In this document: one piece after another, positions 1 through 5,694 of the stretch
Layout of the letters: each line of letters opens with the position of its first letter
How positions within the stretch are numbered: the first letter of the stretch is position 1
Assembly (NCBI GenBank): GCA_030622125.1
Contig: JAUXGM010000138.1
Span: 1-5,762, forward strand
Origin: a bacterium
GTDB lineage: Bacteria; AUK180
Length of the DNA: 5,762 bases
Direction of reading: 5' to 3'
Made by a program: the position numbers and the translations under genes
The notes under the pieces: generated by a model
What the model was told of the DNA's origin: nothing
The model's database searches: none
What the model saw: only the letters and a program-made list of their open reading frames with translations

Positions 1-62
1 GACACACGATGCAAGCAATGTATGTCCCACCTGTTTTCTGAATTTAATATTTTTTTACTTAT
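1..62 (+). repeat. Partial copy (A) of dispersed hairpin repeat, 3' part only
   Basis: The window opens inside a repeat unit. GACACAC (1-7) can pair with GTATGTC (20-26), and TGTCCC ends at 28. After a 9-base spacer, positions 38-62 match the tail box of the right-hand copy (minus strand 5586-5562) at 24 of 25 bases, with the core TTTAATATT.TTTTACTTAT. The hairpin is shorter than in copies B and C: the stem apex is missing and the loop is about CAAG. The 5' module of this copy lies outside the window. Confidence 0.75.
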
Positions 63-94: not shown

Positions 95-225
95 CTATAC
101 TGTTCTCGGGTGGTCTATCGTTATCTAATGAAGAATCCGGGACACACCTCAACTTTAAAAATCAGAAAGTTGAGGTAATGTCCCTCTTTTGTGGCTTTTC
201 GGAGATTAATATTGTTTTTCACTAA
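91..225 (+). repeat. Complete copy (B) of dispersed hairpin repeat
   Basis: This copy has a 5' module (91-138, including GGGTGGTCTATCGTT and GAAGAATCC), a long hairpin (139-184), a short T-rich spacer and a tail box (202-225, core TTAATATTGTTTTTCAC). Positions 91-153 match minus-strand 5694-5632 at 59 of 63 bases, counted by eye. The copy lies about 50 bases upstream of the queD promoter and points towards queD. Palindromes with GGGACA/TGTCCC ends resemble REP-type elements mobilised by Y1 (TnpA_REP) transposases, but no such transposase is in the window, so that origin is inference. Confidence 0.85.
139..184 (+). other. Long hairpin within repeat copy B
   Basis: The left arm GGGACACACCTCAAC plus TTT (139-156) pairs with AAA plus GTTGAGGT, AA and TGTCCC (166-184), enclosing the loop AAAAATCAG (157-165). 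Pairing is complete except for one position near the base, where C faces A with an extra bulged A. TCTTTT follows the stem, so weak terminator activity against read-through from the left is possible. The T tract is short, and the repeat nature of the site makes a REP-like role at least as likely. Confidence 0.8.
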
Positions 226-251
226 CCTCTAACCTCAAACTTCTAACCTCT
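222..251 (+). repeat. 7-bp tandem array, unit CTAACCT
   Basis: The units are CTAACCT (222-228), CTAACCT (229-235), CAAACTT (236-242) and CTAACCT (243-249), followed by CTGTATTTTTT. The string CTAACCTCTGTATTTT also precedes the 8-bp unit of the right-hand repeat on the minus strand (about 5722-5707). Positions 243-260 therefore look like the start of a further repeat unit that breaks off where unique sequence begins. Confidence 0.7.
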
Positions 252-277
252 GTATTTTTTATTCAAGAGACGATGAT

Positions 278-5562: not shown

Positions 5563-5694
5563 TAAGTAAAACAATATTAAATTCAGTATCCCATTAAAAG
5601 AGGGACATACCTCATCAAACTGATTTTTTTTGTTGAGGTGTGTCCCGGATTCTTCCTTAGACAACGATAGACCACCCGAAAACAATATAGACAA
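5562..5694 (-). repeat. Complete copy (C) of dispersed hairpin repeat, inverted
   Basis: Read on the minus strand, it has a 5' module (5694-5647), a hairpin (5646-5602), a 15-base spacer beginning TCTTTT and a tail box (5586-5562). It matches copy B at 59 of 63 bases over the first part and copy A at 24 of 25 in the tail box. It points towards the minus-strand operon, about 180 bases from its first start codon, just as copy B points towards queD at about 140 bases. Confidence 0.85.
5602..5646 (-). other. Long hairpin within repeat copy C
   Basis: On the minus strand GGGACA-C-ACCTCA-A-CAAA pairs with TTTG-A-TGAGGT-A-TGTCCC: 16 Watson-Crick pairs, one C-A and one A-A mismatch. They enclose the nine-base loop AAAAATCAG (5628-5620), the same loop as in copy B. 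Read on the plus strand, the C-A becomes a T-G wobble, so the plus strand folds slightly better. Confidence 0.8.

Follow-up and report, generated by a model that had tools for sequence, protein, structure and literature searches.

A dispersed intergenic hairpin with two opposite paired apices and ends that match a Y1 transposase element

Two hairpins with opposite apex triplets

Two copies of a hairpin in the stretch of DNA analyzed here (the window; 5,762 nt of genome G000, a draft of 2.08 Mb in 192 contigs) close the same loop with opposite triplets, which raises the question of what keeps the apex paired while its sequence is swapped. The initial annotation had reported the swap, and it is real: the copy at 139-184 (+) reads GGGACACACCTCAAC-TTT-AAAAATCAG-AAA-GTTGAGGTAATGTCCC and the copy at 5602-5646 (-) reads GGGACACACCTCAAC-AAA-AAAAATCAG-TTT-GATGAGGTATGTCCC. 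A simple inversion of the apex was ruled out because the loop is not reverse-complemented. Single-stranded DNA folding predicts the described hairpin for both copies, at -15.5 kcal/mol (z -6.2 versus shuffles) for 139-184 and at -12.9 kcal/mol (z -4.9 versus shuffles) for 5602-5646, whereas artificial cross-combinations of the two reach only -10 and -12 kcal/mol. The stem of the 5602-5646 copy also has one A.A mismatch (CAAC/GATG), two pairs down from the apex triplet, which the initial annotation lacks. The features of the window that belong to the composite repeat are as follows.

1-28, plus strand: class C hairpin (gacacacgatgcaagcaatgtatgtccc) that shares the base stem and is truncated at the contig start; whole class C copies are known in the genome
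79-138, plus strand: left module of the composite repeat, with GAATCC as its terminal foot; it precedes most copies and has many polymorphic sites near linkage equilibrium
139-184, plus strand: hairpin A of the TTT/AAA class (copy B in the initial annotation); covariance-model match of 74.3 bits
185-219, plus strand: right module TCTTTTGTGGCTTTTCGGAGATTAATATTGTTTTT, whose TGTCCYTCTTTTRTGGCTTTTC core also adjoins hairpins in genome G002
222-257, plus strand: degenerate heptamer repeats of CTAACCT type, which come after many copies
5567-5601, minus strand: right module, second copy
5602-5646, minus strand: hairpin A of the AAA/TTT class (copy C in the initial annotation), with one A.A stem mismatch; 71.9 bits
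5647-5706, minus strand: left module, second copy

The heptamers at 222-257 and in many repeat flanks are degenerate and AACCTCT-like.

Apex pairing among the copies of the genome

A 21-nt pattern from the left end matches 105 places in G000 at ≤3 mismatches compared to none for the reversed control pattern, which excludes chance for the element, and the covariance model finds ∼74 intact hairpins genome-wide (with many of the places reported for both strands). Copies were read from stretches fetched around the repeats, and contig ends frequently fall in these repeats. The hairpins are dispersed through intergenic DNA in both orientations, with neighboring genes also in both orientations and without a dominant arrangement. 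Exact matches to the 21-nt pattern were absent from GTDB contigs and viral contigs, a search from which near records were possibly left out. A search with RlmN returned only distant hits of Desulfomicrobium/Desulfovibrionales type (37-40%). The foot of the hairpin is GARTCC in hairpin A and TCTT in most of hairpins B-D; the foot tetranucleotide GT[AG]G is absent.

The apex of 72 intact copies falls into two classes, 38 with AAA/TTT and 33 with TTT/AAA, with pairing kept in 71/71 copies; the remaining copy has a longer paired apex, and none is unpaired. A degenerate copy beyond the 72 (C160, L196) carries TTT/AAA as well. The claim of an unchanged loop holds for the window pair and for the 43/72 copies with AAAAATCAG (23 of the TTT class and 20 of the AAA class), but not genome-wide, where 11 loop variants occur. 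Unpaired apices or a freely varying loop had been named as observations that would count against a selected fold; the former were found in 0/72 copies, while the loop does vary around a nearly constant 5' AAAA. The A.A mismatch is present in 26/38 AAA-class copies, and the arm start is the complementary GTT in 33/33 copies of the TTT class versus 12/38 of the AAA class (Fisher p 2e-10).

Linkage was analyzed in an alignment of 58 full-length copies (left module, hairpin, and right module), every one of which is distinct. The median r2 between polymorphic sites is 0.064 at 7-9 nt, 0.022 at 10-15 nt, 0.016 at 16-30 nt, and 0.008 at 31-60 nt; linkage thus decays within ∼10 nt, and most sites farther apart than about that distance are near linkage equilibrium. 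At 31-60 nt, all four site combinations are present in 165/165 other pairs. A set of nine well-spaced sites fits linkage equilibrium. Some linkage persists locally, and the variance ratio for all 47 sites exceeds expectation (I_A 1.07), so equilibrium is near but incomplete. The apex triplets have an r2 of 1.0, and the next best pair, at 11 nt, has 0.54. The result was unchanged in the 37 copies that lie 300 bp or more inside the fetched stretches. Assembly chimerism is unlikely to account for decay below ∼30 nt, a distance presumably shorter than a read, and the interior copies agree. Taken together, 58 distinct copies near equilibrium with fully linked apex triplets make shared ancestry a poor explanation and argue for an apex pair that is held together across copies.

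Covariation among the copies supports the initial interpretation in part. The share of paired cells is 97.2% versus 89.4% in shuffles and ≤47.2% in slid controls, but pairs with double changes show no excess (3 versus 2.9 in shuffles). Compatible stem changes (T.G/C-G/T-A) occur at columns 9-38 of alignment A1, and of 111 hairpins from several classes sharing the GGGAC...GTCCC base, 86 have A-T at stem pair 6, 23 have G-C, 2 have G.T, and none has A.C. The apex swap is essentially one event, a linked block of three adjacent pairs.

Ends shared with a Y1 transposase element

Four genes of G000 score over the Y1_Tnp family cut-off, and each lies between inverted repeats starting with GGGAC. The gene on contig C172 has the ends GGGACACACCTCGC...GCGAGGGGCGTCCC, the first 12 nt of which are common to hairpin A. 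This element is 915 nt long, and its terminal inverted repeats match the base of the hairpin stem (GGGACACACCTC...GAGGTATGTCCC); the hairpin ends, GGGACACACCTC...GTCCC, match the ends of this Y1 (HuH) element. The other three genes (L097, L098, and L099) have different ends, GGGACGGTGG...CCACCGTCCC, and miniature versions of the GGGACGGTGG ends were absent from the fetched loci. The C172 ends AGGGACAC and the other ends GGGGACGG each match 7/8 positions of the TIR motif GGGGWSAS. In the C172 protein, the Y1_Tnp domain is accompanied by a Bac_DnaA_C match (E 2e-5, and 8e-6 in the orthologue from G002; both matches lie under Pfam's curated cut-off). His60, His62, and Tyr119, at the positions of the HuH and tyrosine motifs, are invariant in the alignment. 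A profile search against solved structures gave weak C-terminal matches only, with none for the Y1 domain.

The G002 orthologue, from a second genus, is 66% identical and occupies the same operon site between the ends GGGACACACCTCGC...GCGAGGTGTGTCCC; its left end is identical to that of C172 and its right end is better matched. In G001, G003, and G004, which are of the same family, the element is absent and the two flanking genes abut directly, with the element borders at GGGAC/GTCCC or within a few bases. This comparison points either to a gain of the element in the G000/G002 line or to its loss elsewhere. As a single copy at one orthologous site, the C172 transposase may be domesticated. G002 is the only source of a close homologue outside G000, the next best proteins being 39-48% identical over part or all of their length. 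Of the seven related genomes, only these two carriers of a C172-type transposase give matches to the hairpin model, with 126 in G000 (many on both strands), 3 in G002, and 0 in the five other relatives. An isolated G002 hairpin (L198, G002:C72, 490-543) has TA on both sides, like the C172 and G002 transposase elements.

Explanations for the paired apex

Our current hypothesis, which we consider probable, is that the hairpins are REPIN-like non-autonomous miniature elements of a TIRYT transposase and that the apex swap reflects maintenance of a single-stranded DNA hairpin. The folded single strand would be the transposase substrate, bound and cut by the HuH enzyme by analogy with REP/TnpAREP (PMC8266576, PMC3116915), and copies with an unpaired apex would be neither amplified nor kept. 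A single template switch across the arms may have produced the swap itself, and recombination among copies would then have spread the apex variants. We infer that the C172 transposase moves the hairpins and that single-stranded DNA, not RNA, is the selected form. Several observations weigh against this hypothesis. Insertion polymorphism was found for the transposase element and for none of the hairpins; hairpin A lies mostly within a larger mosaic, the outer parts of which have no counterpart in the transposase element; TA flanks the transposase element and the one G002 hairpin but not hairpin A; the co-occurrence of hairpin and transposase is limited to two genomes; and 26 of the 38 AAA-class copies tolerate the A.A mismatch.

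The initial annotation had considered the swap hard to explain unless a DNA or RNA fold is selected. A single-stranded fold does seem to be maintained, as apex pairing is kept while neighboring sites assort almost freely, yet selection is not the only explanation: the swap is one linked block, and the class-specific GTT arm start is what copying one arm from the other in a single template switch would leave behind. Pairing could then be kept by mutation alone, with quasi-palindrome correction copying arm onto arm at replication whatever the use of the hairpin. Such a mechanism has been proposed from the histories of RNA genes (PMC8794818), and the constant GTT arm start of the TTT class, expected of a joint rewriting of arm and triplet, makes template switching a credible origin of the swap. 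As a full account it is a minority possibility, since the lasting A.A mismatch indicates that correction is not fast, and the abundance of the hairpins and the match of their ends to the transposase element are left unexplained. Template switching and maintenance of the DNA hairpin can act together.

If instead each of the two hairpin versions had a single origin and was then propagated as one block, the apex linkage would reflect only ancestry and physical proximity. Nine linked column pairs over 16 columns do act as one block, and loop variants are partly class-specific. However, loop AAAAATCAG is common to both classes with no TTT/TTT or AAA/AAA recombinant, and for other sites 10-15 nt apart the median r2 is 0.02 and the maximum 0.54, so that descent seems unlikely. 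In 39 aligned copies with the same loop, the apex is concordant in all and is moderately linked to a nearby arm site, which leaves room for exchange of a block. An RNA role, in which the transcribed hairpin (terminator, mRNA stabilizer, or leader) is selected for host gene regulation, appears more doubtful still. The repeat is intergenic, the stem is followed by TCTTTT, and such roles have been proposed for REPs (PMC3733652). Against this, the neighboring genes show no preferred arrangement, no Rfam match was found at gathering thresholds, the terminator scan does not call the hairpin (a weak point, as its loop limit is 8 nt), and the match to the ends of the Y1 element would be unexplained.

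Relation to known repeats

The best reading is that the hairpins are a TIRYT/REPIN-like miniature element and so belong to a known kind. TIRYTs and TIRtrons were named, and dispersed TIR families reported, by Di Nocera et al. (2013, PMC3733652); TnpAY1 subclass 2.1 is probably TIRYT/TIRtron, with no REP-like sequences near its genes (Quentin et al. 2018, PMC6006769). The likeness includes a Y1 HuH transposase whose C terminus carries an HTH/DnaA-like domain, flanking inverted repeats (TIRs, not GTAG REPs), and, as in some known genomes, TIR-related dispersed repeats; the ends here are one position off the TIR consensus GGGGWSAS. In contrast to TIRtrons and subclass 2.1, the dispersed units here are hairpins with two interchangeable apices inside a larger mosaic. 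REPINs are likewise short intergenic hairpins with conserved ends, a variable middle, and a link to a Y1 transposase, and compensatory changes are common in them (Bertels & Rainey 2011, PMC3116915); they differ in the GTAG foot, which is absent here, and in that the present transposase is of the TIRYT type and the copies are measurably near linkage equilibrium. Y1 HuH chemistry on single-stranded hairpins is also expected by analogy with IS200/IS605. However, the ends here are long inverted repeats, and the Y1 proteins are of 280-299 aa (280 aa for the C172 type) and occur as single divergent copies, unlike TnpA of ∼150 aa in multicopy, nearly identical insertion sequences. Bacterial interspersed mosaic elements (BIMEs) are mosaic intergenic repeats of palindromic units and shared linkers; the present repeats share the mosaic intergenic organization but not the sequences or the foot.

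The unusual part is the combinatorial mosaicism near linkage equilibrium. A search by title and abstract, mostly without subscription papers, revealed no obvious precedent for intragenomic REP recombination. We propose only tentatively that copies swap ∼10-nt tracts so often that most of the unit nears equilibrium while a paired apex is held, with Y1-transposase-driven single-stranded DNA exchange behind it; if true, such exchange would represent a previously undescribed type of intragenomic recombination. Through this family, a TIRYT-type transposase is connected with a population of miniature hairpins that can be measured, and a repeat near equilibrium offers a covariation test largely free of shared ancestry, which ordinarily weakens such tests when they are applied to repeats.

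Other arrangements were also seen. Tandem copies with 71-72 bp spacing contain the left module and only the left half of hairpin A (G000:C74:2496-2843, L096), and similar tandems are present on C69, C103, C152, and C161. On C21, C34, C50, C96, and other contigs of G000, a half-hairpin A or a short TCCGGGACACAGTCTT foot precedes hairpins B, C, or D, so that the hairpins are nested or chained. In G002, a different repeat, of the CCCATTTACTCATA type, comes after hairpins (L102, 201-530).
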